Shown: positions 2,839 to 39,818 of the stretch, piece by piece
Position numbering within the stretch: position 1 is the stretch's first letter
How the letters are laid out: each line of letters starts with the position of its first letter
Notes under the pieces: model-generated
Databases searched by the model: none
The model's input: the letters and a program-made list of their open reading frames with translations, nothing else
What the model was told of the DNA's origin: nothing
Assembly: GCF_003315175.1 (NCBI RefSeq)
Contig: NZ_QNRQ01000003.1
Coordinates: forward strand, 310,001 to 374,000
Length of the DNA stretch: 64,000 nucleotides
Origin: Eoetvoesiella caeni
GTDB taxonomy: Bacteria > Pseudomonadota > Gammaproteobacteria > Burkholderiales > Burkholderiaceae_B
Direction: 5' to 3'
Made by a program: the position numbers and the translations under genes

Positions 2839-2905
2839 AAACAAGAGAAAAAACCTATTTTTTTACAGTAACTTGCAATAAAAGAAAGCACCAATACCAC
2901 AAAAA

Positions 2906-2913: not shown

Positions 2914-2919
2914 CTCTGT

Positions 2920-3147: not shown

Positions 3148-3320
3148 GATGCTCTTTCCTCCTAGCTCACGGCTCGGCAGGCATTGCCGACCGCTGTCAC
3201 AATTCGGGATGCTCGCAGGACTGCGGGTCCAACTATTAAACAGGCTCATGGTAGCGAGCAAAAATCGACCTCGTCGTCAGCTCCTGTGCACACCTACCCA
3301 CAACCGACAGCGGCTAACAA

Positions 3321-3349
3321 CGATCGCGAAGCTTCATGCTTCGGGATCG
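3321..3349 (-). terminator. Hairpin downstream of gajB
   Basis: CGATCGCGAAGC and GCTTCGGGATCG form a 12-bp stem with one mismatch around a five-base loop, 19 bp beyond the gajB stop. There is no clear T-run, so it may be a weak terminator or an mRNA-stabilising hairpin at the end of the defence operon. Confidence 0.35.
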
Positions 3350-3367
3350 GGCACGGTCGATGAATAA

Positions 3368-7098: not shown

Positions 7099-7141
7099 AG
7101 TCCCCTCTAAATGTTGTTGCCGATGTATGGACTACTTTTAG

Positions 7142-15011: not shown

Positions 15012-15069
15012 CGGTTTGCAGCCTCCCCGCGGGGCGTGGCCGCCTGGCTGCTATCGTTGAGTGGGGCGC

Positions 15070-15270
15070 TCATGTCTTGTCCTGCGTTTTCTCGGCTATC
15101 TGTGCGGCAATCCAGCGATCCAACTCGCTGCGACGAAACCGCCAGGTGCCACCTAGCTTGAATCCCGGTATCTCCCCCTGCTGGGCCAGCCGATACACTG
15201 TCTTCTTCCCAGCCTTGAGGTAGACCGCCACTTCGTCCAGCGTGAGAATTTCACTATCGGATTGGTTCAT
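15070..15270 (-). CDS. Small excisionase-type helix-turn-helix protein
   Basis: 66 residues of the MerR/excisionase (helix_turn_helix_17) type: LTLDEVAVYLKAGKKTVYRL followed by GEIPGFKLGGTWRFRRSELDRWI. Proteins of this kind bind DNA with a short winged HTH and often sit at the head of modification or restriction operons. It lies 58 bp upstream of the methyltransferase start on the same strand, so it is the likely controller of the operon. It could also be a recombination directionality factor, but it is far from the integrase. Confidence 0.8.
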   Translation of the reverse strand: MNQSDSEILTLDEVAVYLKAGKKTVYRLAQQGEIPGFKLGGTWRFRRSELDRWIAAQIAEKTQDKT

Positions 15271-15344
15271 AACAAGGGGCTCGCTTGGTTTCGCATGGCG
15301 AAGTCTTCCAAAGTTTGGCCAAGTTTACCATCTGGAACATACAA

Positions 15345-15494
15345 ATGAACGCCGAATCTCGACGCCCCCCCCGTCGATCGGTCAAGTCCTGGATGGATTA
15401 CGCCAAAAAGGTGGTGGGCGTGTCTTTTTCCGGTATAGCGCGCGGCGTAGTACCCTTCGACCTTTATAGCCACCCTCTTTGTGGCTTCATCTGA
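15345..15494 (+). CDS. Possible small ORF (49 aa)
   Basis: MNAESRRPPRRSVKSW... is a basic 49-residue frame preceded by GGAACATACAA. It lies 37 bp upstream of the next plus-strand gene. There are no recognised motifs and coding potential is uncertain; it may be non-coding leader sequence. Confidence 0.2.
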   Translation: MNAESRRPPRRSVKSWMDYAKKVVGVSFSGIARGVVPFDLYSHPLCGFI

Positions 15495-15530
15495 ATAAAA
15501 CGGCTGGGCAATATTCGCGTGAGGAATATG

Positions 15531-15836
15531 ATGAGCAGGAAGAAAACCGAAGAAGCGATTGCAGGTAGTCGTGCCGTCACGGCTAAGCGGGCGCGCTACA
15601 CACTGACCGAGTTGCTGGCCGATGCGGAAGCCTCCGGGGCTTACCCGCTGCCGCCTGAGGAACGCGAATGGGTTGATGCCTCGGCAGTTGGCCGCGAACT
15701 GTTGGTCGAGGACTTGCAAAGCGCGGAAGCCATACATGCGTATCTGGCCCACGCTGAGGCCACTGGTGACGTGGCCTATATTGAGCACGCCCGCAAAATC
15801 GCTGCCCAGGCGAAGATCAGATACGGGATTGAATAG
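15531..15836 (+). CDS. Small protein with MazE/ChpS-like antitoxin segment
   Basis: 101 residues from the ATG at 15531, which has GAGG six bases upstream. The middle, RYTLTELLADAEASG then REWVDASAVGREL, resembles the C-terminal toxin-neutralising tail of AbrB-type antitoxins (MazE/ChpS), but the N-terminal DNA-binding swapped hairpin is absent. The C-terminal stretch AYLAHAEATGDVAYIEHARKI looks like the start of HigA-type (HI1420-like) antitoxins. No toxin gene is adjacent. It may be a chimeric or orphan antitoxin; both similarities are from memory and weak. A GC-rich hairpin (15842-15859) follows the stop. Confidence 0.45.
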   Translation: MSRKKTEEAIAGSRAVTAKRARYTLTELLADAEASGAYPLPPEEREWVDASAVGRELLVEDLQSAEAIHAYLAHAEATGDVAYIEHARKIAAQAKIRYGIE

Positions 15837-15841
15837 CAGAA

Positions 15842-15859
15842 AGCGGCCACCTGGCCGCT
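15842..15859 (+). terminator. GC hairpin after the antitoxin-like gene
   Basis: AGCGGCCA and TGGCCGCT form a perfect 8-bp stem with a two-base loop six bases after the stop codon. No T-run follows, so intrinsic termination is uncertain. Confidence 0.4.
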
Positions 15860-15889
15860 CTCGTAGTTACTGCCGGGCTGGGTAAGACG

Positions 15890-15920
15890 GTAAGAATAAT
15901 AATCTTCTTATTATTCTTAC
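15890..15920. repeat. Perfect 13-bp AT-rich inverted repeat
   Basis: GTAAGAATAATAA (15890-15902) and TTATTATTCTTAC (15908-15920) are exact reverse complements around TCTTC. The AT-rich stem stands out against GC-rich surroundings, between convergent genes. It may serve as a bidirectional terminator, a protein-binding palindrome or a scar of an insertion. Confidence 0.6.
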
Positions 15921-16011
15921 CTGCCCCGCCGGGCTACGCTTGGGGAAGAGATCGGCGAATCGCCTCCAGGGCTTCGCAGAAGTCGTTCCGTGTCGCACGG
16001 CCTGTTTCGGC

Positions 16012-16164
16012 CTAGTAGTACACCACCATGAAAGTGTTCGCCACGGCCTCGGCCAGCGGCCCCAGGCGCTGCGCCGCACTCTGGTCGATGTACTCCAAGG
16101 AAGCAAGAATAGCGGCCGCCTGCTGCACGACCTGACCCGGTTCGATAAGATGCTGTGTTGTCAT
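16012..16164 (-). CDS. Small hypothetical protein (50 aa) of the trb operon
   Basis: MTTQHLIEPGQVVQQAAAI... ends in ...MVVYY-TAG. The start has GAGAGGTG a few bases upstream. It is helical and weakly hydrophobic with no known domain. It lies 64 bp beyond the 79-residue ORF, in line with trbJ-trbK-trbL on the minus strand, and both small proteins begin MTT, hinting at a shared operon. Function unknown. Confidence 0.5.
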   Translation of the reverse strand: MTTQHLIEPGQVVQQAAAILASLEYIDQSAAQRLGPLAEAVANTFMVVYY

Positions 16165-16228
16165 GATTCACCTCTCAGACAGGTGTTGATTGAAAGTGCC
16201 GGGCGGGTTACCGGCCCGCCCGGTGCGC

Positions 16229-16468
16229 CTACAGGTACAGCCCCGCCGCCTCGGCGAATGCTGACCGCTGATTACTGCCGCCCTTTACCTCGATGCTGAC
16301 CGACTTAGGTTCGATCCCTCGTGCATAGTCTGGCCGCGCCACAAAAACCGCTGTTTCTGCTGCTGCATCAATCTCAGTCGATTGATCGCCCAGCGGGGAA
16401 ACAAATACCTGAACTTCCTCTTGGCGTTCATCCAAGGCCGTCAATGCGGCCATATAGGGTGTTGTCAT
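16229..16468 (-). CDS. Small hypothetical protein (79 aa) downstream of trbL
   Basis: Starts MTTPYMAALTALDERQ at the ATG at 16468, which has GGAGC upstream; the ORF extends further 5' but that part overlaps trbL. Acidic, soluble, no recognised domain. The four-base gap to trbL and the same direction indicate an operon with the transfer genes. Function unknown. Confidence 0.55.
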   Translation of the reverse strand: MTTPYMAALTALDERQEEVQVFVSPLGDQSTEIDAAAETAVFVARPDYARGIEPKSVSIEVKGGSNQRSAFAEAAGLYL

Positions 16469-16472
16469 GGGA

Positions 16473-17906
16473 TTAGCTCCTGCCTTCGTTGTTATCGGTG
16501 TCACGGCTCACGAATGAGGCCGTTTCGTCATTGCCTTGGGTGCCGCCCAGGCTGTTGCCTTTGAACTGGCCCGTTTCTTTCGACTCCATGCTTTCACGGA
16601 TCGAGGCGGCCACTTTCCCGCCCGCCGTTTCATTCACGCGCTCCTGAAATCCTTGCTTCATTTGGGAGCCGACACCTTTGGCCAACTCCAATGCTGTGCC
16701 TGTGGCCAGTTTCGCGGCCCTGGCGAAACCGCCATGACTTGAGCCAGAATCGCTTCCGCCAAAGCCGGCGGCCTGTGCAAACGGCGAACCACCAGTCGTG
16801 CCAGCTGCACCACCACCGCCGCCGCCACCCGAGTTGCCGCCCATGACCGATCCCATGCTGGGCATATCCCCGCCGGTGCTCATGCTGGCCGACGCTTTCT
16901 GAAACGCTGCCTGAATGGCCGATGCGCCGCCCGTGGCGCCTGCTGCGCCGCTGAGCATAGCCTTACCAGCCATCGCCACACCACCTGTGGCCATACCCGC
17001 TGCTGCCATCGCTGCGCCCATCGCCGCGCCCGCCCCAAAGTTGCCAATGCCGCCCGCACCACCGACGCCCGATCCGGTAATGATGCCGGCGACCAGAGGG
17101 GGAACGCGATTGACCAGCATCAGCAACGCGACGCAGAAAACCAGCATCACGCCCAGCTCTTCAAAGTTCAGCGTGCCGGTGTTCATCCTGGCGTAAAAGC
17201 TGGACAGCAAATCGTTGCCGATACCGACCAACAGCACCATCGTCATGATCTGCACGGCCACCCCCAGCACGGTTTTGTAGTAGTTGATCGCCATATCGGA
17301 AGTCCAACGCGACCCGCCGAAGCCGAGGAAGAAGATGCCGGCGTACATCAGCAGCCAGGCCGACACGAGCAATAGCAGCATATTCACGGCGATGACGGCC
17401 AGCAGGACAAGAATGCCGACGCTCAGCGCCACACCAATGAAGCTATCCACGGGTGACCAAACCGACGAGTTTTCAAGAGCCTGCTTCAGGATCATGAAAC
17501 CGATATCCACGATGCCCGAGGGTGTCACCGATGCCACCCCGGATGCCTGTTCGCCGATCCTGGCCAGCGACTGGATGATCGAATTAGCGAAGGCCGGGCC
17601 GTTGCGTAACAGCCAGAGGAAGAAACCGAAGAACAGGATGAAACGGATGAACTCGGCGAAGAACTCGCCAATGTCGGCCTTGCGCAGTGTCATGAAGCCA
17701 AACGTGAAAACCAGCGAGATCGTGCCCAGCGTCCAGAACAGGAACATCGCGGCATTCATCACCACCGTCTGCCAGGACGTGGCCCGCGTAGCGAACTCTG
17801 TCACCACCTGGTCAAGCATCCCGTGGTTGGTGAGCTGGGCCGATGCAGCGGTGGAGTAAAGCGCGAGAACGACACCGATCAGCGCCGCCTTGTGCAGTAC
17901 TTTCAT
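16473..17906 (-). CDS. trbL: TrbL, conjugative mating-pair-formation inner-membrane protein
   Basis: 477 residues, VirB6/TrbL type. An N-terminal signal-like helix (MKVLHKAALIGVVLALYSTAASAQ) is followed by several membrane helices between about residues 40 and 260, then a long Gly/Ala/Met-rich low-complexity tail. TrbL forms part of the inner-membrane channel of IncP-type type IV secretion. The ATG at 17906 has AAGGAGG upstream and overlaps the trbK stop by four bases. The rest of the trb cluster (trbB-I) is missing from this element, so it is unlikely to form a working channel alone. Confidence 0.88.
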   Translation of the reverse strand: MKVLHKAALIGVVLALYSTAASAQLTNHGMLDQVVTEFATRATSWQTVVMNAAMFLFWTLGTISLVFTFGFMTLRKADIGEFFAEFIRFILFFGFFLWLLRNGPAFANSIIQSLARIGEQASGVASVTPSGIVDIGFMILKQALENSSVWSPVDSFIGVALSVGILVLLAVIAVNMLLLLVSAWLLMYAGIFFLGFGGSRWTSDMAINYYKTVLGVAVQIMTMVLLVGIGNDLLSSFYARMNTGTLNFEELGVMLVFCVALLMLVNRVPPLVAGIITGSGVGGAGGIGNFGAGAAMGAAMAAAGMATGGVAMAGKAMLSGAAGATGGASAIQAAFQKASASMSTGGDMPSMGSVMGGNSGGGGGGGAAGTTGGSPFAQAAGFGGSDSGSSHGGFARAAKLATGTALELAKGVGSQMKQGFQERVNETAGGKVAASIRESMESKETGQFKGNSLGGTQGNDETASFVSRDTDNNEGRS

Positions 17907-18172
17907 GGCTTCGCCTCCTTCTGGTCTTTCGGGTCGGCCAGTTCGAGCCAGTTCATGGGCTTTTCGGTCGGCGCAATGCCGCCGGCGGCTGGCGACCAGC
18001 GCGAGCACTGCCCGGCGAATTTCTCACGTGTGGCCCTGTCCTCAATCTTCTTGATCGCCTCGATCCGGCAATTGGTGTCATTGACCTCGGGCATGGGCGG
18101 GATGGCCGGCTTGTTGTCGCAGCCAGCTACCAGCACCGCCACGAGGCCGGCAAGCAGCATAGTTTTCTTCAT
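17903..18172 (-). CDS. trbK: TrbK-like entry-exclusion lipoprotein
   Basis: 89 residues with a lipoprotein signal (MKKTMLLAGLVAVLVAGC, lipobox VAGC, Cys18). Two further Cys residues follow. In IncP plasmids trbK lies between trbJ and trbL and blocks entry of related elements; position and size match. Retaining an exclusion gene in a transfer-deficient element could still protect the host from related conjugative elements. Its tail (MNWLEL) shares a motif with the TrbJ C-terminus. Confidence 0.8.
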   Translation of the reverse strand: MKKTMLLAGLVAVLVAGCDNKPAIPPMPEVNDTNCRIEAIKKIEDRATREKFAGQCSRWSPAAGGIAPTEKPMNWLELADPKDQKEAKP

Positions 18173-18187
18173 GGTGCGGGGCCTCCG

Positions 18188-18970
18188 TCAGCGGGTCAGT
18201 TCGAGCCAGTTTTTTGGACTGGTCGTGCGCTCGATCCTGGATTCCCTGGAAGTCGAACCGGCGGCCTGCTGTTGCGCCTCAAGGTCGGCCTGCGCCTGCA
18301 TCCGGGCGGTCGCGGCGCTCTGCTGCGCAATCAGAAGACCACGGATTTGCAGAAGCTGGTTCGCCTGGTTGGCGGAAAGCTGATTGGCGAAACCGACTGC
18401 CTGCATCTGGCCGGTCGCACCCTGCGCGGCCGACTGAAGCCGTTCGAGCTGGCGAGCGTCAGCGGTCAGGTTGCGCTGCTGTTGCTCAAGGCCCTTGAAA
18501 AGCGCGTCATTCGCTTTCTTCTGGCTTTCACTTGCCAGTCTGCGGTTTTGCTCCATGGCGGTGCGTTCGGCATCCGAGCAGCCAGCGGCCGAGAAGCATG
18601 GCGAACCACGGTAATAGGCTACGTCCTGGAACTTGCCCAGGTACGCATCGACACTACCAAGCTGGTTCCTGTAGTAGTCCAGCGTGTTGACGGCGTTCAT
18701 CAGCCCATTGATGGTGGACTGCGCCTGATCCCAGATATAGGCCGCTGGCGCAGCCGTATTCTGCAGCTGGTTTTCGTACTGCTGAAGCTGGGTCTGGTAT
18801 TGCTCGATCTGCTTGAGCGTCTGCGCCACCGACTCGATGGCCGTCATGACGTTTTGCGTCAGGTTGCCGCCGTCGATGACGGGTATGCCGGCGTGCGTGG
18901 ATGTGATAATGCTGCCAGCCAGGACGGCGGCAAGCGCGGTTTTAGCCGCTAAAAAACGGACACGTTTCAT
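18188..18970 (-). CDS. trbJ: TrbJ, VirB5-like conjugation protein
   Basis: 260 residues with an N-terminal export signal (LAAKTALAAVLAGSIITSTHAG) and a long Gln-rich coiled-coil region (QTLKQIEQYQTQLQQYENQL), typical of TrbJ/VirB5 pilus-tip proteins. A pair of Cys near residue 125 could form a disulphide. It is the first gene of trbJ-trbK-trbL. An IncP KorB operator match lies inside its first codons (18941-18953), implying the operon was once KorB-controlled. Confidence 0.87.
   Translation of the reverse strand: MKRVRFLAAKTALAAVLAGSIITSTHAGIPVIDGGNLTQNVMTAIESVAQTLKQIEQYQTQLQQYENQLQNTAAPAAYIWDQAQSTINGLMNAVNTLDYYRNQLGSVDAYLGKFQDVAYYRGSPCFSAAGCSDAERTAMEQNRRLASESQKKANDALFKGLEQQQRNLTADARQLERLQSAAQGATGQMQAVGFANQLSANQANQLLQIRGLLIAQQSAATARMQAQADLEAQQQAAGSTSRESRIERTTSPKNWLELTR
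18941..18953. promoter_or_regulatory. KorB operator (OB) match in trbJ 5' end
   Basis: TTTAGCCGCTAAA fits exactly the IncP KorB operator consensus TTTAGCSGCTAAA. It lies within the first ten codons of trbJ. KorB is the ParB-like global repressor of IncP plasmids. No korB gene is visible in the element. Confidence 0.8.
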
Positions 18971-19135
18971 GGCCGAGTACCTCTCGATGTGATGAGTTAG
19001 CTATTGCGGCTAATCTGCCCCACGTGTTTCTGTGGGGTTGGGCCATCACGTGGCAGTTCGCCAAAATCTGCCAAGGTACCCGCCCTTGCGACACCGTCAC
19101 GCCGGGCTTACGTTTTTATTGAGGGGCGGTGTGTG

Positions 19136-19153
19136 TCGTGCAAACCTGCACGA
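19136..19153 (-). terminator. Hairpin at end of toxin gene
   Basis: TCGTGCA and TGCACGA form a perfect 7-bp stem with loop AACC, nine bases beyond the stop of the PIN toxin gene. Weak terminator or operator; there is no strong T-run. Confidence 0.35.
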
Positions 19154-19161
19154 TTACTGCT

Positions 19162-19587
19162 TTACTCTTGATCTTCCCAAGGATTGATGACTTTCACGCC
19201 GGCAGCCAGGAACGGGCTCACATCTCTCGTAGCCACGCTGAAACCGCTATCCAGAGCAATCGCCGCGATGACGGCATCAGCCGCCTCGATGCCGCTGCCG
19301 GCCTTGCGAGCGGCTGCCAGTACATCGGCATAGGCGCGCGTGCAAGCCATATCAAACGACAGCACCCGGCCCACAAATACCGGCAACACCTGGTGTTCTA
19401 TGCTGTCACTGAGCACTGTCCGGCGCTTACCTGCGGGCATCAGGGCAACACCAGCCCGCAGTTCGGCCACGGTCATGGATGCCAGATAAAGCGTTTCCAG
19501 TGGCTGACGATTCAACCAGTCAATCACCGTTTCGTCGGGTACGGCTCGAAACTGCTCCGATATAACGTTTGTATCTAGCAGAATCAT
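19162..19587 (-). CDS. PIN-domain toxin, VapC/FitB type
   Basis: 141 residues with the PIN RNase pattern: MILLDTNVISE (Asp5), an acidic residue in TVAELRAG, and the C-terminal acidic cluster AADAVIAAIAL with ATRDVSPF. Such toxins cleave RNA (often initiator tRNA) when freed from their antitoxin. The start overlaps the antitoxin stop by four bases. The pair sits between trbJ and the traI remnant, where the missing transfer genes would normally lie, and could stabilise the element. Confidence 0.9.
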   Translation of the reverse strand: MILLDTNVISEQFRAVPDETVIDWLNRQPLETLYLASMTVAELRAGVALMPAGKRRTVLSDSIEHQVLPVFVGRVLSFDMACTRAYADVLAAARKAGSGIEAADAVIAAIALDSGFSVATRDVSPFLAAGVKVINPWEDQE

Positions 19588-19832
19588 TCAAAACTCGCTG
19601 CACGGGCGGGTGAATGGTCTCGGTCAAAAACCACCATTTCTTCGTCGGTCAATTTCACCTTGCGCCCGATGTCTGCCAGCAGGTCGCCCAGCTTTACCCG
19701 GCCTTCCGGTTTCACAGCGGTAGCCAATATTTCGCACATCTCGGCTTGTAATGTACGGCCGTTCTGCGCTGCCCTAACCCGGATGGCACGATGCACCTCT
19801 TCCGGCACATTCCTGATCGTTACTGCCCTCAT
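19584..19832 (-). CDS. FitA-type ribbon-helix-helix antitoxin
   Basis: 82 residues. The N-terminal ribbon-helix-helix segment (VTIRNVPEEVHRAIRVRAAQ) matches FitA/StbC-type antitoxins that repress their own promoter and neutralise a PIN toxin with their C-terminal tail. It is translationally coupled to the downstream toxin by a four-base overlap. Confidence 0.88.
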   Translation of the reverse strand: MRAVTIRNVPEEVHRAIRVRAAQNGRTLQAEMCEILATAVKPEGRVKLGDLLADIGRKVKLTDEEMVVFDRDHSPARAASFE

Positions 19833-19890
19833 GTCCGCACTCCTTTTTTGATTGCTGTGAAATCAATTATACAAACTGCATTCAAGTAGT

Positions 19891-20093
19891 TCAAGGACTA
19901 CTGACCCCGCCCCTTGCGCCGGTTCGGCCTGTCTTTCTTTCGATGATGGCGTCCCACCCCGACACAGCATCGCAGTTGGTGATCTGCACCTGACCCAGCC
20001 GATGGTCCGTGGTTTGCTCGTCGGCGACGTAGTGCACCAGGACGGCAAAGTCGGACTTGCCCAGCGACGCAGAGGTACATCATTGGCGATCAT
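19891..20093 (-). pseudogene. traI: traI relaxase remnant (5' fragment, frameshifted)
   Basis: MIANDVPLR at the ATG (20091-20093) and, one frame over, LGKSDFAVLVHYVADEQ and HRLGQVQITNCDA together match the start of IncP-family TraI relaxases (compare RP4: MIAKHVPMR, KKSDFAELVKYITDEQ, VTNCEA). Loss of one base after the R codon breaks the frame. Similarity stops after about 50 codons, before the catalytic Tyr-dependent and His-triad motifs could be complete, and the shifted frame ends at 19891. The relaxase is therefore dead; traJ and oriT remain upstream. Confidence 0.85.
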
Positions 20094-20110
20094 CAGCCGG
20101 CCTCCGAATT

Positions 20111-20123
20111 TTTAGCGGCTAAA
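20111..20123. promoter_or_regulatory. KorB operator (OB) match between traJ and traI remnant
   Basis: TTTAGCGGCTAAA, exact match to the IncP KorB operator consensus, in the gap between the traJ stop and the traI remnant start. Confidence 0.8.
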
Positions 20124-20126
20124 ATT

Positions 20127-20498
20127 TCAAGGCTCGGCCCTTGGCCTCACCACGGCTTTCATAACGCGCCCCATTTCGTCCTGCGTGGCCTCGATCCTGC
20201 CCAGCAGCGCCAAGATGGTTGCATGGCCGAACCTAGCTGTGCGCTCGTCATCGGTAAGCCAGAGTTTCAGCAAGCCACCCAGGCGACCAAGGTCGCCATT
20301 GATTCGGGCCAGCTCGCGCACGCGCTCATAGTCGGTGATGCCCTTAACCTCGTAGCCTTGGCCAACGGCCAGCAGAAATGCGGACAGGCTCAATCCTGCC
20401 GCCGCCGCGTTCTGTTCTATAAGCTCACGTTCTTCGGGCAAGCAATAGACCTTGATCGGCGTGCTGCCCTTACGCGTGATTCGCTTGTTTTCCTCCAT
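20127..20498 (-). CDS. traJ: TraJ, relaxosome oriT-binding protein
   Basis: 123 residues with a ribbon-helix-helix-like N-terminus (PIKVYCLPEERELIEQNAAAAGLSLSAFLLAVGQGY) as in IncP TraJ, followed by a helical tail. TraJ binds the inverted repeat next to nic and recruits TraI. The ATG at 20498 has GAGG six bases upstream. It is directly followed by the oriT on its 5' side and by the traI fragment on its 3' side, the same order as RP4. It appears intact while its partner relaxase is not. Confidence 0.85.
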   Translation of the reverse strand: MEENKRITRKGSTPIKVYCLPEERELIEQNAAAAGLSLSAFLLAVGQGYEVKGITDYERVRELARINGDLGRLGGLLKLWLTDDERTARFGHATILALLGRIEATQDEMGRVMKAVVRPRAEP

Positions 20499-20577
20499 CG
20501 TCAACCTCGCATTTTGTTTCTTGCCGGCGGTAGTCGGCTGCCTCGCAGAGCAGGATTCTCGTTGAGTGCCCCCGGCG

Positions 20578-20650
20578 CGAATAAGAGACAGTGAAGAAGG
20601 ACAATCCGCTTGCGGGTGGGCCTACTTCACCCATCCTGCCCGCGTCACAA
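20578..20650. other. oriT: IncP (RP4-like) origin of transfer, oriT
   Basis: An imperfect inverted repeat GTGAAGAAGG (20591-20600) / CCTACTTCAC (20621-20630), with a small CCGC..GCGG hairpin inside, is followed at once by CCATCCTGCCCGC. The nic core ATCCTG/C of IncP relaxases is present, so the expected cut lies between 20638 and 20639. The order (repeat, GGGTGGGCC, repeat arm, nic) is the same as in RP4 as I remember it. traJ starts 80 bp away. Confidence 0.88.
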
Positions 20651-20683
20651 CCGCGTTTTCTGCACGTATGCAGGTTGGAATAT

Positions 20684-20778
20684 GTCGCTATTACGTCGCT
20701 ATTGATCTGCGATTGCTCCGCAATCGCTGCACAATCGGCAGAATCGCGCCGTAATCGTGAAAAATCGGCATAGAATCG
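20684..20778. repeat. Helically phased short direct repeats beside oriT
   Basis: GTCGCTATT occurs twice 11 bp apart (20684, 20695). AATCG then occurs six times starting at 20722, 20733, 20742, 20753, 20763 and 20774, that is, every 9-11 bp, one helical turn. A small palindrome GCGATTGC/GCAATCGC (about 20709-20727) overlaps the first copy. In RP4 the equivalent region binds TraK and is bent; no traK is seen here. Confidence 0.6.
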
Positions 20779-20901
20779 CGATAAAAACGGAATCTCCAAC
20801 CGATTTCCTACCGCTTCCCAGCGTGCGAAACCAACACTTTCCTTGCTCTTTCCTCGCACTCGAAAAAAGCCGAGTTGAACGCCAAGGGAAAAGCCATGCC
20901 A

Positions 20902-21060
20902 CCGCCCCTCAAGTGTCAACAAAGCATCCTCGATGCCGCCGGCATTCAGTAGTAAGTGACTTCCAGCCGACCCTTCAATGGGGCACGATGCGCTTCTGGT
21001 AGCGCGGGCCGGTGATCTTGTGGCCGCCGCACTCCGTTGATGTTGACACTTGAGGGGCGG
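20902..21060. mobile_element. 159-bp element with 20-bp terminal inverted repeats
   Basis: The left end 20902-20921 and right end 21041-21060 are perfect 20-bp inverted repeats (right end: TGTTGACACTTGAGGGGCGG). The 119-bp interior, read on the minus strand, contains a short frame ending GHKITGPRYQKRIVPH-stop, which may be the tail of a transposase-type gene. It looks like an internally deleted insertion sequence or a MITE. No obvious target-site duplication was found by eye. Confidence 0.55.
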
Positions 21061-21125
21061 CCTGGCCGTAGTCGGTAAAGCTCGATGACTCGTAGCTGCC
21101 TCCCTTCCCCTCCTGGCGTTCAACC

Positions 21126-21256
21126 ATCGGCCTCTGGCCGATTGAGCAAGTCCGTCAGGACTTGATCGACAAGGTGCAAGCGACCGCCTCAAGCGGGCGG
21201 TTACACCGCCTGGATATCCTGAAATATCCTGAACATCCTGCCAAAACAGCAAAAAA
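21126..21256. other. oriV: Palindrome-rich segment of putative IncQ-like oriV
   Basis: Three consecutive hairpins are present: ATCGGCC/GGCCGAT (21126-21142), CAAGTCC/GGACTTG (21147-21164) and ACCGCC/GGCGGT (21183-21201). They are followed by a tandem ATATCCTGAA pair (21214-21233) and an A-rich run just before the iterons. IncQ origins combine iterons with an AT-rich segment and palindromic single-strand initiation sites, so this is a plausible oriV. The RepB primase that IncQ plasmids use is not present here. Confidence 0.55.
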
Positions 21257-21340
21257 TCGGGCCGCTGTGGCACGCTTCCGGGCCGCTGTGACACGCCTTC
21301 GGGCCGGTGTGGCACGCTATCGGGCCGCTGCGACACGCTT
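21257..21340. repeat. Four tandem 21-bp iterons
   Basis: Units at 21257-21277, 21278-21298, 21299-21319 and 21320-21340 share the core GGGCCGCTGTGGCACGC with one to three differences. They lie directly at the 3' end of repC; the repC stop codon falls at the end of unit 3 and unit 4 encodes the last residues KRVAAAR. Tandem 20-22 bp iterons bound by RepC are the defining part of IncQ oriV. Confidence 0.88.
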
Positions 21341-22081
21341 TACCCTGTCTGTGGCATCTATTTCGATACCGATTTCGATCAACCCGACGGCATCATCCTT
21401 CAAGCGTCGCCGATAATTACGCAGCGTCATGCTGTTGACCGCCTCGCCTCCTACAGCACGAATCAAGGTGTCCAGGTGCCAGCCTCCTGCCGGATCGTAT
21501 CTGTGGGTGAGCACATGCCGCGCAAGCGCCTGACTGATCCCATGTTGCAACCGGGCAATGGGGGCAGGCGGGTAGTACAAAGACAAATCCCTCTCCAGCA
21601 GCATCACCAGGGCAACGCCCAGCCGGACGCGCCACAAATGGCGCTCCCCGCCGGTGAGCGGATCACGGCGGGTCATAGGTGACGGGATAACGTGGTCAAT
21701 CAGGCCGCCAATGATGCTGTCACCACTGCTCTCCATTTCCGGTGTCACGATTTCTACCGTGGCGGCCCGCAGATCGGTCAGCAGCTTTTTGATGCGACCG
21801 TGGCTGTACTGATGATCGGATAGCATCCGACGCAGCGCCGCCGGGTCAATCAGCAGCTCGATGCCGCCGTCTGATATTTCGCGGCGGCGTTCCGCCACAT
21901 ACAACATGGATTCCACAATATCGGCATGACGCTGACCCAGCCTGCCGGTTACGCGGCATCGACCGAAACCGGTTTCTATCCACTGCCCGGCGCGTTCCCG
22001 TGGGCGCTGGCTGGGCTGATAGATCATCACTCGCGCCTGCAATGCCGTGCTGGTCGGGGCGACCTGATTACCAGTTGTCAC
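21317..22081 (-). CDS. repC: RepC-like IncQ replication initiator
   Basis: 254 residues from a GTG start that overlaps the repA stop by 14 bases, as in IncQ plasmids. Two winged-helix-type regions are suggested (LIDPAALRRMLSDHQYSHGR; and LDTLIRAVGGEAVNSMTLRNYRRRLKDD near the C-terminus, comparable with the C-terminal wing of RSF1010 RepC). RepC binds the iterons to open oriV. The iteron array overlaps its own 3' end. It appears intact, so excised circles of the element might replicate if a primase is available. Confidence 0.8.
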   Translation of the reverse strand: MTTGNQVAPTSTALQARVMIYQPSQRPRERAGQWIETGFGRCRVTGRLGQRHADIVESMLYVAERRREISDGGIELLIDPAALRRMLSDHQYSHGRIKKLLTDLRAATVEIVTPEMESSGDSIIGGLIDHVIPSPMTRRDPLTGGERHLWRVRLGVALVMLLERDLSLYYPPAPIARLQHGISQALARHVLTHRYDPAGGWHLDTLIRAVGGEAVNSMTLRNYRRRLKDDAVGLIEIGIEIDATDRVKRVAAAR

Positions 22082-22919
22082 TGCCGCCCCTCGCTACAGA
22101 TTTCAGCTTTGTGGGTGACTGGCGTTTCTGCCGCTCAAGTACAGCCGGCTTGAGCACGCCACCCTCATGCCGCCGGAACCAACATTCCAGAAAGGGTGCG
22201 CCGTAGTTTGCTTTGCTGACACCATAGCGGACAAAGTATCCTCGCTGCCCTTCATCAACACCCCATTCCTCGGCCTCAGCCTGCGTCATGCCGGACAGAT
22301 ACGACTGCCAGCGGATGTTATCGACCAGCACCGATGATCCACGACTGGCCTGCTGTTGATCGCCAGCGCCCGCCATCGCCGCGCCCTTGTTGGCGTGGTG
22401 CAGAAACACAATGGAACAGCCGGTCTCGGCGGCTATGGCCTCCATTCGACCAATGACCTGCGCCATAGGCCCGCTGGCGTTCTCCTCCTCAATATGGAAC
22501 CGACGCAGGGTATCCAGAACCATAAGACGATGACCCTCGGCGGCCCGTTTGAGGCCATCGAACCAATCTCGGGCCATGATATTGGGGCATTTGCCAATCA
22601 GCGGCTCAATTAGCAAGCCATCTGCCACGGCTTGCCGCTGCGCAGCGGTAAAGTGTGCGCCAAGAGCGTGCAAGCGGTGATGGATCGCGACAGGTGGATC
22701 TTCGGCCGGCAGGTACACCACCGCGCCGGTGGGCAGCTCGCCTACTTCCAGCAAATCAGGGCCGCCGGCAATCTGCGCAGCCAATTGCAGGATCAGCATG
22801 GACTTGCCTGCCCCGCCAGGTGACACCAGTGCGCCCACCGTGCCGGCAACCATATTTGGTAATACGTAATCTATTGGTGAAGGCGCTTCACTGAACGCCA
22901 CCATCAGGTCAAGGGCCAT
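22068..22919 (-). CDS. repA: RepA, IncQ-type hexameric replicative helicase
   Basis: 283 residues, very like RSF1010 RepA: DYVLPNMVAGTVGALVSPGG with Walker A GGAGKS, VYLPAEDPP, Walker B LMVLDTLRRFH, and SIVFLHHANKGAA. It is the RecA-fold 5'-3' helicase that acts at oriV with RepC. It starts one base after the stop of the AlpA-like gene. The order alpA-repA-repC suggests one minus-strand operon. Confidence 0.93.
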   Translation of the reverse strand: MALDLMVAFSEAPSPIDYVLPNMVAGTVGALVSPGGAGKSMLILQLAAQIAGGPDLLEVGELPTGAVVYLPAEDPPVAIHHRLHALGAHFTAAQRQAVADGLLIEPLIGKCPNIMARDWFDGLKRAAEGHRLMVLDTLRRFHIEEENASGPMAQVIGRMEAIAAETGCSIVFLHHANKGAAMAGAGDQQQASRGSSVLVDNIRWQSYLSGMTQAEAEEWGVDEGQRGYFVRYGVSKANYGAPFLECWFRRHEGGVLKPAVLERQKRQSPTKLKSVARGGSDNW

Positions 22920-22920
22920 A

Positions 22921-23148
22921 TCAACCCCTCACGTCGCCGGGCCGATCAGCCTGAATACCCGACGACTTACGCGCTTCGATCCATTCTTCGACTTCCGATA
23001 AATCCCATGCGACATTCCTGCATGTGAGAGCAATACGGCGTGGAAACTCCCCTCGCTGCTCCAAGTTGTAGATGGTTCGCGTCGAGAGCGGAATGATCTC
23101 CAGGAGCTTTTTTCTGTTGATGAGTATTTTGCTGGTTGCAGCCTGCAT
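22921..23148 (-). CDS. AlpA-family helix-turn-helix regulator
   Basis: 75 residues from the ATG at 23148 (GGAGG seven bases upstream): ILINRKKLLEIIPLSTRTIYNLEQRGEFPRRI then WDLSEVEEWIEARK, the compact winged HTH of AlpA/excisionase proteins. It heads the repA-repC operon and faces a divergently transcribed regulator. It may control replication/excision of the element or act as directionality factor for the integrase. Confidence 0.85.
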   Translation of the reverse strand: MQAATSKILINRKKLLEIIPLSTRTIYNLEQRGEFPRRIALTCRNVAWDLSEVEEWIEARKSSGIQADRPGDVRG

Positions 23149-23160
23149 GGCCCGGCCTCC

Positions 23161-23195
23161 AATTGCTAACGAGTGCCTTATGGTGCCTAGCAATT
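23161..23195. promoter_or_regulatory. Palindromic operator in divergent promoter region
   Basis: AATTGCTA (23161-23168) and TAGCAATT (23188-23195) are perfect inverted repeats 19 bp apart, enclosing two GTGCCT direct repeats. They lie between the AlpA-like gene and the plus-strand HTH gene, so a regulator binding here could control both. Confidence 0.55.
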
Positions 23196-23237
23196 CATAC
23201 TGCGACAGCCTTATAATTACCCAAATAGGTTGACGTC

Positions 23238-24215
23238 ATGAAAAAAGAACAGACCATAACCATCTGGGAAGGATGCGATCCTGGCATATCGAAAGCCATC
23301 GAACGCTTTCAAGATCGCTGGCGTCCTTACTCCACCGCTTCGCGGCGCTACCCCATCAGGCGATTGATACAGGAAGTCATTGATCCAGCCGTAGCCACTT
23401 ATATGAAATCCCTCCCCGCACGTTATTCGGGCTTCGTATCCGGTTTCGGGGCGGGAATGAACTTCAGCGAGACCATTCGACTGGTCGGATTTGATACGAT
23501 AGTTCGTCTGCAACGACAGTTACTGCGTCATTTCATTAAGACGGAGGACAAGCAGGATTCAAGGGATCAGCGATTTGTTGCAACCATCGAATCTCTAACC
23601 AGTTTGGCTTGGGATTGCGCGTGCAAGCGCCCGAAAAAAACGACCACCACAACTGGCGTCAATCTAAACGCGCAACGTAAACATGGCTTTTGCGAACTAT
23701 GCGGAGAGCTGACCGAGTTCGCCGACTTCATGGCAACGGTCGCTGACGAGCAAGTCAATGATGTAGAGCTACAAGACCGTAAGAAGCTCGAACTCAGCCA
23801 CCAGTACTGCGCCAGACATAGGCCCATCTTGGCGAATGGCAGCCGGAACCCCGCTTATAGGCAAGCAAAGCGATCCCTCGCGCAATTCAACCTCGAACTT
23901 GACCGGCTCAACCGTCAATGCGCGAAGCGTGCCACGCCGCAAGCCGCCTCTGGCGACTCGCTGGTAGATCGCTACTTCTACCACCTCATGTTGAGCCAGA
24001 CCGTACAGTCAGCCGACAAAGGAGAGCTGCGCAACCAGGCGCGCTTGATGGTGGACTCGAAGCTATCAGACCGCAAAAAGAAAATATTGATACTCCAGTG
24101 GGATGGACTCAACCAGTCGGAGATAGCGCGAAAACTGGGCATCGAACGTCAGGCGGTATCGAAAGCGTTGAAGTCGTTGGCCTCGACGCCCCGAATGCTC
24201 CAATTGAAGGAGTAA
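23238..24215 (+). CDS. Putative DNA-binding regulator: Cys/His cluster plus sigma-type HTH
   Basis: 325 residues. The central region holds a possible zinc site, FCELCGEL followed about 60 residues later by YCARHRP. The C-terminus is a clear helix-turn-helix like sigma-70 region 4/LuxR (KKILILQWDGLNQSEIARKLGIERQAVSKALKSL). It is the only plus-strand gene of the element's maintenance region and is divergent from alpA-repA-repC, suggesting a regulator of replication or excision. A KorB operator match lies 16 bp past its stop. The family was not recognised. Confidence 0.6.
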   Translation: MKKEQTITIWEGCDPGISKAIERFQDRWRPYSTASRRYPIRRLIQEVIDPAVATYMKSLPARYSGFVSGFGAGMNFSETIRLVGFDTIVRLQRQLLRHFIKTEDKQDSRDQRFVATIESLTSLAWDCACKRPKKTTTTTGVNLNAQRKHGFCELCGELTEFADFMATVADEQVNDVELQDRKKLELSHQYCARHRPILANGSRNPAYRQAKRSLAQFNLELDRLNRQCAKRATPQAASGDSLVDRYFYHLMLSQTVQSADKGELRNQARLMVDSKLSDRKKKILILQWDGLNQSEIARKLGIERQAVSKALKSLASTPRMLQLKE

Positions 24216-24230
24216 AACGACACCGAAAAT

Positions 24231-24243
24231 TTTAGCGGCTAAA
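24231..24243. promoter_or_regulatory. KorB operator (OB) match downstream of the HTH gene
   Basis: TTTAGCGGCTAAA, the third exact match to the IncP KorB operator consensus in the element. It lies between convergent genes rather than at a promoter, as distant OB sites do in IncP plasmids. Confidence 0.75.
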
Positions 24244-24387
24244 GTCCCTGACTCATCTGTACTGATTCAAACCCGAGCAGACATGTTCCGTTCGACCTGC
24301 ATGACAGGAAAAGTCCGGACCGAACATTGGAGTAACAATCTCCGTGACATCGCCGAGCTGAAGTCACAACCGATGAAAATCTCACCG

Positions 24388-25020
24388 CTAGCCGAGATTT
24401 TTCTTGGCGTCTTCAAAGCGTGAGTAAACCTTATCCGAGCGTCCTTCAAAAGCCATACGCCCGACAGTCTTTCTGTCAGTCCAATACTCAGCTGTCAGCG
24501 AGTCTGGTTTGTACTTCGGCCCATGCGTAGAAATCGTCGCCGCGCCAACATGCCGCTCACTGCGAACACCTCGAAGTTCTACGCCGGGCGTGTTGGCATA
24601 AACGACCGACACGTTGAAGCGGTTGCCGCATAGCGTCGGCTGGATTGCGTGGGCGAGCAGACAGGATTCGGACTCTGGTGTCATAAGCTGAATTTGCAGC
24701 TTACTAAACGTCTGAACTATGCCAGCGTATGCGGTAATCGGCGGAACTTTCTCGCCGGTTTCTGGGTTGATCCACTCCGGATGAATCGTCACCTTCCAGG
24801 TACCACGGAGGTCTGGCCGGTCGAACAGCCAGCCCTGAAAAATATGTAATCGCCATAGCAGATGTTCCATCGCCAGAGTGACGGCCACAAGTACACCAAC
24901 CACTGTTGTGAAGGGCGCAAGGTGATCCCAGGAAATGGGTGTTCCTTGCAGCCAAAGCACCGCGCCCCATGCGATGGTGGCGACAGCGAGCGCAGCCGTG
25001 ATTTGAAGGCGTGTGAACAT
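24388..25020 (-). CDS. cap15: CBASS effector, Cap15-like membrane protein
   Basis: 210 residues: two N-terminal transmembrane helices (about 7-25 and 36-56), then a soluble beta-rich domain beginning LRGTWKVTIHPEW and continuing through alternating polar/hydrophobic strands. This two-helix plus beta-barrel layout matches Cap15 effectors, which oligomerise in the inner membrane on binding cyclic dinucleotides and kill the infected cell. It starts two bases after the CD-NTase stop. Assigned from architecture and partner rather than a search. Confidence 0.75.
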   Translation of the reverse strand: MFTRLQITAALAVATIAWGAVLWLQGTPISWDHLAPFTTVVGVLVAVTLAMEHLLWRLHIFQGWLFDRPDLRGTWKVTIHPEWINPETGEKVPPITAYAGIVQTFSKLQIQLMTPESESCLLAHAIQPTLCGNRFNVSVVYANTPGVELRGVRSERHVGAATISTHGPKYKPDSLTAEYWTDRKTVGRMAFEGRSDKVYSRFEDAKKNLG

Positions 25021-25022
25021 AC

Positions 25023-25937
25023 TTAAGCTATTCCGATGTAACGGCGAGTGCTGTCTATAAATTCTTCAAACCGCTTGCGCTTCGCATCGTCATTTTTTAG
25101 CAGATATTTTAGTTCACTCACCTCGCCCCACTCGCCGCATAGCGACATACTCGACAAGTAGAGGGACAGGTGATTTAGTACGGAACAAACATCATCGTAC
25201 CAAGTCTCGTGCGCAAAACAGCTATTAGGAGCGTTCCATACAAGGCACTCAACGTTAAAACCCTTAATCAGCTTAGCTTCTGCAATGCCGTCCTCTTCCA
25301 TGATATTGCGCAACTTCTTTACAATACGAACAACACCACGATACGCTCGACGAGTGTCGTTATTTTTACCATTGCCGTTCTCGTAATGTTGGCGCGGCCA
25401 TTCGTGAGTGTCGTAGAGGCGTTCCGGCCAGTTGATGATTCTACCGCCGCTATCAGGCCGCAACTCGGTTCCACAAATATATGTACCATCAGCCGAGTAA
25501 CGACGATGCACCATGAGAGGTACTACGTCCGCATCAACTCGGTAGGTGTTCTCATGAATATCAAATGCCTTATCACCACGCGTAACATGCTGCGCTCCAA
25601 AGTAGCTTATTAGAGCCTTTCCAATATCGTTTTTAAAATGGGCGTACCCGTAATCAACGCTAATCACATTAAAATCAGCGTCGATTTTCCCGGACGGATA
25701 ATCGGTCCCGAATAGGTTACCCGTGTAGAGAACACCGATATCCACATCGCTGTCTTGCCTGACATTTACACGGTTTCGATAGGAACCTTGTATAAAAACC
25801 TTCGTCACCGACGCCATTTTCACGTCAGCAGCCAATGCCTTTCTAATCGCAGTGATTGCATTGTCTATTTTATCGCTCTCTGTTTGGCTCGGGGCTTGTG
25901 CCCATGTCGCAAAACGACTATTCCATGTTGCGCTCAT
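25023..25937 (-). CDS. CBASS CD-NTase (cyclic oligonucleotide synthase)
   Basis: 304 residues with the nucleotidyltransferase core: IQGSYRNRVNVRQDSDVDIGV (GSY at 51-53, Asp64 and Asp66) and the third carboxylate in YRVDADVVP (about 135-137). These are the catalytic residues of cGAS/DncV-like enzymes that make cyclic di- or trinucleotides during phage infection. AAGGAG precedes the ATG. With only one effector gene and no Cap2/Cap3 or HORMA/TRIP13 genes, this is a type I CBASS. The clade (CdnB/CdnE) is not certain. Confidence 0.88.
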   Translation of the reverse strand: MSATWNSRFATWAQAPSQTESDKIDNAITAIRKALAADVKMASVTKVFIQGSYRNRVNVRQDSDVDIGVLYTGNLFGTDYPSGKIDADFNVISVDYGYAHFKNDIGKALISYFGAQHVTRGDKAFDIHENTYRVDADVVPLMVHRRYSADGTYICGTELRPDSGGRIINWPERLYDTHEWPRQHYENGNGKNNDTRRAYRGVVRIVKKLRNIMEEDGIAEAKLIKGFNVECLVWNAPNSCFAHETWYDDVCSVLNHLSLYLSSMSLCGEWGEVSELKYLLKNDDAKRKRFEEFIDSTRRYIGIA

Positions 25938-25990
25938 TTGTTCTCCTTTTTATAAAAATAACATCATGGAAATTATTGTCCGGCTTTCCA

Positions 25991-27178
25991 TCAAACAGTC
26001 CACTCATCAATCATATTCGCCCAATCCTGCAACATCGCCGCCCGCTGTTCGCGGTACTCAGCCTTGTTGTAGACCGCCCTCACGCCCTTCTGCTCGTGCG
26101 CCAGGCACTTCTCAATCCAGTCGGTGTTGTAGCCAGCCTCATGCAACAGCGTGCTGGCTGTGCGCCGCAAGTCATGCGGCCCGAACTTGGCCAGCGACTT
26201 CCCGTCTTTCTGCGCCGCTTTGTAAGTCAGGGTCAGCACCTGATTGAGCGTGGCAGCGCTCATCGGCGCATCCGAGTCGTACCGTGATGGCAAAACGAAG
26301 TCAGAACCACCGGCAAAGGTTTTCAGGGCAATGAAAATATCCAGAGCCTGCTGGGACAGGAATACCAGGTGCGGGTTACGGCGCTTCATCCGCTCCTTGG
26401 GAATCGTCCACAGCGCTTCGCTGAAATTGATCTCGCTCCAGGTCGCATTGGTCAGCTCGCTTTTGCGCACCATGGTCAGCAAAAGCAGCTTGGCCGCCGC
26501 ACGATTTGTTGGGCTTGTACCCACCCGCTCCATGTACTGATACATCAGCCCGATTTCTTCTGGCATCAACGCTCGGTCGCGTGGCTCGAATCGGGCGATG
26601 CTAGTTGGCCGCACCAGCTCCGCCGGGTTTTCGACCTTCTGCCCACGCTCGGTTGCCCAGCGAAACACTTGCATAACGATTTCACGCACATGAACGGCGG
26701 TGGCCGGTGCGCCTCGCTCGACGATGGCATCGGTCAGCGCTCGCAAGTCCTCATGGGTGATCTCCACCAGCTTCTGATTGCTGAATTTCGGCTTCAGCTC
26801 GCGCTCATAGACCGAACGGCGCATATCGCGGGTGGAGTCGGCCATCTGGTAACCGCGCAGCCACTTCTCCGCCCAGGCACCGAACGTCTCCGCATCTTTC
26901 ACTCGCGCCTTGTCGCGGGCCTTCTCCTTGGCCGGCGACTTGCCAGCCGCAACCATCTTCTTGGCGTCATTCAACTGCTCACGGGCTTCAGCCAAGGTGA
27001 TGCCACCGACACCATAGCGACCAAAGGTGATGGTCTCCTGCCGCCCGTTGATTGAGTAGTTGTAACGGAACGAGATGGAGCCGGCTGGAGTCACGGCCAC
27101 ATAGAGACCTTCTCGGTCATTCACCTTGTAGAGCTTGTCCCTGGGCTTGAGATTTCGCAGCTTGGTATCGGTCAGCAT
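25991..27178 (-). CDS. int: Tyrosine integrase (P4-type), guaA-specific
   Basis: 395 residues: an N-terminal arm-binding DUF4102-type domain (LRNLKPRDKLYKVNDREGLY), a core-binding SAM-like domain (about 100-190) and the catalytic domain with Arg238 (MVRKSEL), His335 and Arg338 (PHDLRR), His361 (LAHEQ) and nucleophile Tyr370. The start lies 306 bp from the guaA end, and the attachment repeat lies beyond it, as expected for an integrase next to its att site. It appears intact. Confidence 0.95.
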   Translation of the reverse strand: MLTDTKLRNLKPRDKLYKVNDREGLYVAVTPAGSISFRYNYSINGRQETITFGRYGVGGITLAEAREQLNDAKKMVAAGKSPAKEKARDKARVKDAETFGAWAEKWLRGYQMADSTRDMRRSVYERELKPKFSNQKLVEITHEDLRALTDAIVERGAPATAVHVREIVMQVFRWATERGQKVENPAELVRPTSIARFEPRDRALMPEEIGLMYQYMERVGTSPTNRAAAKLLLLTMVRKSELTNATWSEINFSEALWTIPKERMKRRNPHLVFLSQQALDIFIALKTFAGGSDFVLPSRYDSDAPMSAATLNQVLTLTYKAAQKDGKSLAKFGPHDLRRTASTLLHEAGYNTDWIEKCLAHEQKGVRAVYNKAEYREQRAAMLQDWANMIDEWTV

Positions 27179-27202
27179 GTAGCGTGTCCCTCTTCATTTT
27201 CG

Positions 27203-27307
27203 ATACCATGCCAAAAAAACGCCAAAATTTCATCGTTTTTTTCTATATAAAACAACAACCTATCAAGATTCTATACCATGAACACATAAGAAAATTCAGC
27301 ATGGTAT
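27203..27307. promoter_or_regulatory. Possible integrase arm sites, right end
   Basis: ATACCATG at 27203-27210 and 27273-27280 and its inverse at 27300-27307 lie between int and the right attachment repeat and match a site near the left end (2906). A separate direct repeat, CCGTGCCAGAC, occurs at 27394-27404 and 27468-27478, close to the crossover. The intervening sequence up to 27484 holds no gene. Confidence 0.4.
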
Positions 27308-27411
27308 CGGCATCAATCATGGCATCATCAACGGATAGTACCAGCTTTAATGCCATGCTCAAACGGTGCTTGGCGCTTCCTCCCGTTGCCAGACCGTGCC
27401 AGACACAAATA

Positions 27412-27437
27412 CAAAAAAGCCCGCAATTACGCGGGCT
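27412..27437 (-). terminator. guaA terminator located inside the island end
   Basis: On the minus strand AGCCCGC-GTAATT-GCGGGCT is followed by TTTTTTG, a classic intrinsic terminator about 50 bp past the guaA stop. It is on the island side of the attachment repeat, so the element supplies the transcription stop for the gene it interrupted. Confidence 0.8.
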
Positions 27438-27483
27438 TAGCGGCTTTTTATGCCTTCAGATGCCTGGCCGTGCCAGACGCGGG

Positions 27484-27502
27484 ATCATTCCCACTCTATC
27501 GT
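27484..27502. repeat. Right attachment-site repeat (3' end of intact guaA)
   Basis: ATCATTCCCACTCTAT plus CGT, overlapping the guaA stop codon. It encodes T-I-E-W-E-stop on the minus strand and matches 2820-2838 with one mismatch. Integration therefore keeps guaA coding capacity. Confidence 0.9.
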
Positions 27503-39802: not shown

Positions 39803-39818
39803 GGTTCGTCCTCCTTGA

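Follow-up and report, generated by a model that had tools for sequence, protein, structure and literature searches.

Can a genomic island that carries helicase and initiator genes of its own replicate once it has been excised? This question is raised by a locus of Eoetvoesiella caeni (assembly GCF_003315175.1, contig NZ_QNRQ01000003.1, positions 310,001 to 374,000; this whole stretch of 64,000 nucleotides is called the window hereafter), in which a preliminary description had seen an IncQ-type replicon inside an IncP-type transfer element. We consider it fairly probable that positions 21100-23193 serve as replication unit in an integrative and mobilizable element of the guaA type, in which a proposed initiator here called RepC2, together with its iterons, would let the excised island replicate. 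GIsul2-type islands with RepA and RepC are already published, and maintenance of excised guaA-type elements through RepA/RepC was proposed in section 6 of a 2017 review (PMC5704250). Numbers with the prefix L denote sequences used for comparison.

RepC2 and the iterons at the end of its gene

The genes and repeats on which the argument turns are the following:

22921..23193, minus strand: alpA, putative excisionase (Pfam Phage_AlpA, E 1.6e-12), its stop 1 nt before the repA start codon
22068..22919, minus strand: repA, IncQ-type helicase (RSF1010 RepA chain 1g8y, E 1.9e-153)
21317..22081, minus strand: repC2, proposed initiator of an unrecognised family (no PF06504 match), overlapping repA by 14 nt
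21321..21338, minus strand: iteron 1, 18-bp core inside repC2, encoding the C-terminus (last seven codons)
21258..21317, minus strand: iterons 2-4, 18-bp cores at 21300-21317, 21279-21296 and 21258-21275

Both replication genes had been thought to resemble those of RSF1010 strongly. This holds for RepA, which matched the solved RSF1010 protein, but not for the second gene. No family in Pfam, NCBIfam or PHROGs claimed its product (best Pfam row E 0.015, below the family cut-off), and PF06504 was matched by none of the 32 RepC2 family members at E ≤ 0.1, whereas the RepC of GIsul2 matched it with E 7.8e-145. BLASTP against IncQ1 RepC aligned a 48-residue stretch only (E 0.05), and PDB sequence searches gave weak rows only (best E 0.26 and 1.2). 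A remote kinship with PF06504 RepC is possible, the sole link being an HHalign match of 47 C-terminal columns to the RepC2 profile (probability 45, E 2.2e-4). By sequence comparison, the initiator of the window is of a family other than RSF1010 RepC, which the databases searched do not recognise; no description of it surfaced in the open-access literature searched, where a nameless protein is hard to query. Structure prediction from the single sequence was useless (pLDDT 40.5), and the model used was built from a 32-row alignment (pLDDT 76, pTM 0.58). According to this model, RepC2 is probably a two-domain winged-helix protein, with domains 2-3 of RctB as best structural match (Z 6.8 over 205 residues, root-mean-square deviation 6.0), followed by 4pt7, an entry titled 'Structure of initiator' (Z 6.7).

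The tblastn search of a plasmid collection returned eight records with RepC2, at 60-67% identity in pSMBC31-5K, pHPRU111, pUL3AT, NZ_KX946994 (pJF-707, by the accession given in PMC7557826) and a Klebsiella michiganensis plasmid, at 41% in a Citrobacter plasmid and at 28-31% in two Leptospirillum plasmids. Its open reading frame lies directly after repA in pSMBC31-5K, pHPRU111 and pUL3AT, where it is annotated 'ABC transporter ATPase'. An initiator role is supported because RepC2 follows repA in small plasmids that must replicate, namely these three and pJF-707. A 2020 paper states, in the part cited here, that p435_c4, pJF-707 and pUL3AT lack repC (PMC7557826). Since two of these three, pUL3AT and pJF-707, were found with RepC2, and pUL3AT with its iterons, RepC2 is a candidate answer to the published puzzle of how IncQ-3 plasmids said to lack repC replicate, and the family profile is a means to find such replicons. 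The ratio of non-synonymous to synonymous substitution rates was 0.05-0.14 for RepC2 against 10 relatives, an 11th comparison being saturated, and 0.05-0.08 for RepA against seven relatives, the synonymous rate often exceeding 1.

The four 21-bp iterons, at 21257-21340, gave a tandem score of 4.57 (maximum in 20 shuffles, 2.17). An IncQ replicon is expected to have at least three tandem iterons of about 20-22 bp, and the window has them. That one iteron codes for the C-terminus of the initiator, so that origin and gene overlap, had been noticed before and was borne out: the core at 21321-21338 lies inside repC2, whose stop codon is at 21317-21319, and the overlap is conserved in relatives. We scanned 41 sequences (the window, L003-L008, L011-L040 and L042-L045, without L041, L046 and L047) and in 36 of them a tandem array with a 21- or 22-bp period lies close to the RepC2 stop; 37 scores beat all 20 shuffles, but that of L020 was not an array on inspection, and L033 has two copies only. 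With a consensus, 31 of 32 sequences showed three or more copies, a count that includes L033 and the diverged repeats of L006 and L042, while L043, which has its own repeat type, did not; the threshold of 9 of 15 admits false copies (at -29 in L003 and L004, and extras in L013, L026, L042 and L033). After removal of two false matches, one copy lies inside the coding sequence in 21 of 31 sequences, and the array begins no more than six bases past the end of the stop codon in 10 of 31. The array is in frame because 21 bp are seven codons, and the frame reads into a second copy in L025, L026 and L045. The alignment of origins by eye covers L028-L030 incompletely.

The iteron-coding end of repC2 is under constraint at the DNA level. 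Its last seven codons show no synonymous difference in eight close sequences (out of 12 aligned RepC2 sequences), the lowest value of 248 windows, for which the median was 0.63. Moreover, iteron distance follows RepC2 distance (Mantel r 0.78, 0/2000, n=31). Because the plain Mantel test leaves shared ancestry in, partial tests were added: the correlation persisted when RepA (partial 0.49, 0/2000, n=28) or the integrase Int (partial 0.59, 0/2000, n=18) was controlled for, and RepA and Int added nothing to the prediction of the iterons (partial -0.12 and -0.20). The test with 28 sequences is without L005 (same repeats as L004), L006-L008, L011, L012, L020, L029, L039-L044, L046 and L047, and the test with 18 leaves out L031. 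At the sequence level, the iterons track RepC2, not RepA or the integrase.

RepA and RepC2 are discordant in several loci; in L021, RepC2 is 80% and RepA 43% identical to the window. Compared with GIsul2, the identity is 68-88% across AlpA and most of RepA, 28-60% from the repA 3' end through the initiator, the iterons and an adjoining A+T-richer stretch, 66-82% at 21101-21200 and 76-92% at the origin of transfer (oriT; 20551-20650). This alignment indicates that initiator gene, iterons and A+T-richer stretch were replaced as one block relative to GIsul2. In four plasmids with a PF06504-type RepC, the iterons have a different sequence and are found 1.7-3.2 kb downstream of the repC gene, beyond other genes that may be insertions. 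GIsul2 is the exception, as its iterons, of 22 bp and another sequence, likewise encode the C-terminus of its RepC.

Proposed origin region and IncP-type parts

Beyond the iterons, the region down to the trb genes contains the following features (oriV, vegetative origin):

21209..21257, minus strand: A+T-richer stretch, proposed opening region, with repeated CAGGATATT-like units seen by eye
21100..21142, minus strand: priming-site-like element 1, hairpin ATCGGCC-AGA-GGCCGAT then GGTTGAACGCCAGGAGGGG (DNA fold z -3.1)
21043..21058, plus strand: IncP oriV-type iteron TTGACACTTGAGGGGC, the same 16-mer being present exactly 5 times in the examined stretch of pB12
20904..20919, minus strand: second IncP oriV-type iteron, inverted
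20859..20890, plus strand: priming-site-like element 2, opposite orientation, weak hairpin then GTTGAACGCCAAGGG (z -0.34, no better than shuffles)
20590..20700, plus strand: IncP-type oriT with a nic-like motif at 20633
20127..20504, minus strand: traJ, relaxosome protein (NCBIfam NF010451, E 1.5e-58, passes cut-off; Pfam NikA-like)
19936..20073, minus strand: traI remnant (residues 8-53 of 597 matched, 61% identity)
18188..18970, minus strand: trbJ (NCBIfam NF010452, E 4.1e-123, passes cut-off)
16473..18008, minus strand: trbL (TIGR02783, E 8.5e-77, passes cut-off)

The order downstream of the iterons is CAGGATATT-like repeats, a hairpin plus GGTTGAACGCCA and, farther on, the same sequence in inverted orientation; by eye, CAGGATATT-like repeats also stand beside the iterons of relatives and of the plasmids L003 and L004. 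The window thus has an opposed pair of hairpin plus GTTGAACGCCAAG, of which the second hairpin is weak. Allowing up to three mismatches in 13 bases, which lets in chance matches such as that at +143 in the window, 26 of 30 regions have the first priming-like site and 14 have the opposed pair; GIsul2 has both. The plasmids L003-L005, which carry RepB, have other hairpins at that place. Judged from its sequence, the layout resembles a two-site origin of IncQ style, adapted to some primase other than RepB. A 15-bp IncQ oriV motif, CTGCGCCTAGTGGAG, given in the cited part of PMC7557826, was absent from the window by exact search; it is a weak marker, being absent from L003-L006 and GIsul2 as well, and is visible in L050 and L051.

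The sequence of the RK2 iteron served as a lead to the IncP-type iterons, and their identity was then checked on the IncP plasmid pB12. With up to two mismatches, 22 such TrfA-type 16-mers were found in 12 of 31 origin regions, including the inverted two of the window, as against 2 in 487,765 bp outside the origin regions of 29 of these loci (window and GIsul2 not counted) and none in 20 shuffles per region. Their orientation and spacing vary among islands, and the idea that the inverted TTGACACTTGAGGGGC pair borders a small mobile insert was dropped for this reason. These iterons may have remained from an IncP origin or be a contact point with a helper plasmid. Beside a gene annotated as replication initiation protein, the IncP plasmid pP9014 (L009, 6001-6330) holds two copies of a stretch like the opening region together with an iteron-like TCGGGCCG...TGTGAG, perhaps an origin fragment captured by this plasmid.

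Combining these results, we tentatively advance a broader proposal, which we hold to be possible but less than likely: RepC2 would be a new plasmid initiator family that moves with its own origin as one DNA unit and replaces RepC under RepA in plasmids and islands, while island origins would add priming sites independent of RepB and, in a subset, TrfA-type iterons through which a helper would control the island or be disturbed by it.

The IncP-like character of the transfer genes stood in part. It holds for oriT, whose motif at 20633 we take to be nic from the RK2 consensus, and for traJ, trbJ and trbL. However, traI is a fragment of 43-46 residues, besides which the genome gave no other TraI-like match, whereas L011 and six other loci have a near-full TraI. 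Among the open reading frames of the island that were examined, trbJ and trbL were the only trb genes, without the remainder of the mating-pair set or a coupling protein; the TrbK of GIsul2 had no tblastn match in the window at E 1e-5, a weak test for so short a protein. The picture of an IncQ-type replicon inside an IncP-type transfer element is therefore right for an IncQ-like replicon with IncP-type transfer parts, but not for a complete transfer element. A PIN-domain toxin and FitA-like antitoxin pair (19162-19832, minus strand) occupies the expected place of traI.

Proposed replication of the excised island

Two features define the element as a whole:

2820..27499, no strand assigned: whole island, bounded by a 16-bp direct repeat (2820-2835 and 27484-27499) at the guaA 3' end
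25991..27178, minus strand: tyrosine integrase adjoining guaA (Pfam Phage_integrase)

The island is 24.7 kb long, related to GIsul2 and inserted at the guaA 3' end, which shares an exact 16-mer with position 2820. Its integrase gene lies within a 1.5-kb stretch of 91.7% DNA identity to GIsul2 of pAB3, and integrase matches in the guaA relatives are 84-96% identical. Among 37 relative loci collected through RepC2, from alpha-, beta- and gammaproteobacteria, guaA is followed by the same integrase type in 17, and AlpA stands immediately ahead of RepA in 24. From the guaA repeat, the GIsul2-like integrase and this order in relatives, the element is assigned to the guaA integrative and mobilizable elements of the GIsul2 or 'IncP island' kind. 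It shows the guaA-end insertion, direct repeat and related integrase of a GIsul2-type island, and the order alpA-repA-repC with trbJ and trbL, RepC2 occupying the repC slot. The site is the preferred one of GIsul2 in the cited part of PMC9376610, and a related element, ICERspD18B, is described in that of PMC7775301 as transferred to E. coli and located at guaA. RepC2 is present in 6 of 268 host-family genomes, that of the window counted, and was not found in one other genome of the same genus; such patchy presence fits expectation for a mobile element. The module RepA-RepC2-iterons is also kept in elements without a guaA-type integrase match (L015, L017, L018 and L022, from Marinobacter, Halomonas, Bisbaumannia and Marinobacterium); TrbL is reversed in L015, L018 and L022, and L018 has a different, 354-aa integrase.

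The 1-nt gap and the 14-nt overlap in alpA-repA-repC2 suggest that excision and replication functions are probably co-expressed. In the mechanism that we propose, the island would be excised by the integrase and AlpA, and the RepA helicase and RepC2 would be supplied from the operon that presumably also transcribes alpA. RepC2 would bind the four iterons at the 3' end of repC2 and open the adjoining A+T-richer repeats, where RepA would be loaded. Both strands would be primed at the two opposed hairpin-type sites, like in IncQ strand displacement, by a primase of the host or of a helper rather than of the island. As a result, the circle would be maintained for a time or gain in copy number. That the circle replicates after excision is plausible in view of the purifying selection, the conserved iterons, the small plasmids with the same module and the precedent of SGI1. 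Copy amplification of the defence cargo, as suggested in the preliminary description, is speculation.

Among known systems, GIsul2 is alike in integrase, AlpA, RepA (high identity), IncP-like nic motif, TrbJ/TrbL, hairpin priming-like pair, inverted TrfA-type iterons, an initiator C-terminus coded by iterons and the guaA site. It differs in having a PF06504 RepC with 22-bp iterons of other sequence, and its cargo is arsenic resistance and sul2 instead of defence genes. The IncQ-3 plasmids pUL3AT, pJF-707 and pHPRU111 share RepA followed by RepC2, and in pUL3AT and pHPRU111 the iterons CGTGGCACAGCGGCCCG abut the RepC2 gene. In contrast to the window, the iterons of IncQ-3 plasmids begin just past the stop codon and RepA is about 42% identical, and in pUL3AT and pHPRU111 there is also a RepB-like gene, and the hairpin sites are different. 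RSF1010-like IncQ-1 plasmids share a RepA helicase and iterons with the window and have opposed hairpin sites, whereas the window has another initiator family and another iteron sequence and position, with no primase gene found in the island. SGI1 is a mobilizable island with four GC-rich iterons immediately downstream of rep, which are needed for helper-triggered island replication; its iterons are of 17 bp, its initiator has a RepA_C domain, and the cited part of PMC7433901 does not mention an IncQ-type helicase. The IncP island of Burkholderia glumae and relatives shares TraJ, TrbJ and TrbL and is listed at guaA with RepA, but has its own MobP relaxase where the window has the traI remnant (PMC5704250, part cited here).

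Several observations weigh against replication of the circle. No array was found in L039, L040 or L044 in the scan of 41, nor by eye in L059, and L011 and L020 hold only one iteron although the RepC2 of L011, at 94%, is one of the closest; some islands can therefore do without the array. RepB is present only in L003-L005 and L021 among 44 sequences, with no match in the window, and RepB and PF16793 were not found in the host genome, a weak negative because no positive control accompanied the protein search and the family search reached its cut-off in 0 of 14 control genomes. As no primase gene was found for the island, priming is the weak step of the model. For the second priming-like site there is only a short motif to go by, since the identity to GIsul2 drops again to 30-62% at 20651-21100 and the right flank is kept only in short blocks. 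All VIA Z values of the RepC2 model are below 8, with CRP-type regulators close behind at 6.4, and Foldseek against the PDB gave no match at E ≤ 0.001. Finally, the Discussion of the GIsul2 study reports that alpA expression raised the amount of circle and that circles otherwise required nested polymerase chain reaction (PCR), and the same study, in the part cited, that GIsul2 still integrated after alpA/repA/C deletion in a PCR assay (PMC9376610). In L011 (10740-10800) and L020, where repC2 is kept with one iteron, the reading frame continues past the usual stop; judging by these sequences, both origins are likely dead.

Could the cassette be a decayed remnant of a plasmid-like ancestor that no longer replicates since primase and relaxase are missing? 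The traI fragment, the RepB negative with its weak controls and the loss of iterons beside a retained repC2 in L011 and L020 point that way, but repC2 and repA keep intact reading frames under purifying selection, none of the four iterons is missing, and the one inside the gene is constrained at the DNA level across eight sequences; we regard such decay as rather unlikely. A purely regulatory role, in which RepC2 represses its own operon or excludes related elements, would fit iterons in and just after repC2, and initiators of iteron plasmids are often autoregulatory as well. The iterons are however at the 3' end rather than at the promoter and adjoin A+T-richer repeats and hairpin sites in an origin-like layout that small plasmids share, which leaves this role quite improbable.

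Compatible with the proposed replication unit is a part for a helper, the TrfA of an IncP plasmid acting on the island, by start, block or titration, through the IncP-type iterons between the RepC2 origin and oriT; replication, or interference between island and plasmid, would then depend on the helper. The enrichment of TrfA-type 16-mers in 12 of 31 origin regions speaks for it; against this, they are absent from 19 of 31, one to three iterons are few for a TrfA origin, and a search of the genome for an IncP plasmid, by TraI only, gave just the remnant, so that we consider a helper-driven origin improbable. The ordinary RSF1010 (IncQ-1) replicon as first read has the RepA match in its favour, but is contradicted by the PF06504 negatives and by the different sequence and placement of iterons in PF06504-RepC plasmids; no RepB was found, nor CTGCGCCTAGTGGAG by exact search, and this reading is very hard to sustain. 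With the RepC2 replication unit as the preferred explanation, replication of excised GIsul2-type islands and the borrowed primase become testable questions in a field, the maintenance of excised elements, that the 2017 review headed 'an unexplored world' in the part cited (PMC5704250).

Cargo and surroundings

The defence cargo (Gabija, type IIG enzyme and a cyclic oligonucleotide-based antiphage signalling system, CBASS) gave good matches to its models. A Gabija pair lies at the far island end (3368-7098, minus strand; PADLOC, GajB helicase E 7.8e-246 and GajA E 2.8e-228). The genes at 7142-15011 (minus strand), all in one direction, encode a type IIG MmeI-like enzyme, a PDC-S02 nuclease-like protein, a DEAD-box helicase, a T5orf172 protein and a 263-aa orphan, and are possibly one uncharacterised defence operon. 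A two-gene CBASS (24388-25937, minus strand), with a nucleotide cyclase and a Cap15-type two-transmembrane effector, is placed between the integrase and a 325-aa helix-turn-helix protein on the opposite strand. The interval between integrase and alpA looks like a cargo slot, as its length differs among relatives. Beyond the island, genes of type II/IV secretion type at 36266-40024 (minus strand), for two T2SSF proteins and one T2SSE/FHA ATPase, probably form a Tad-type pilus locus, judging by their sequence.

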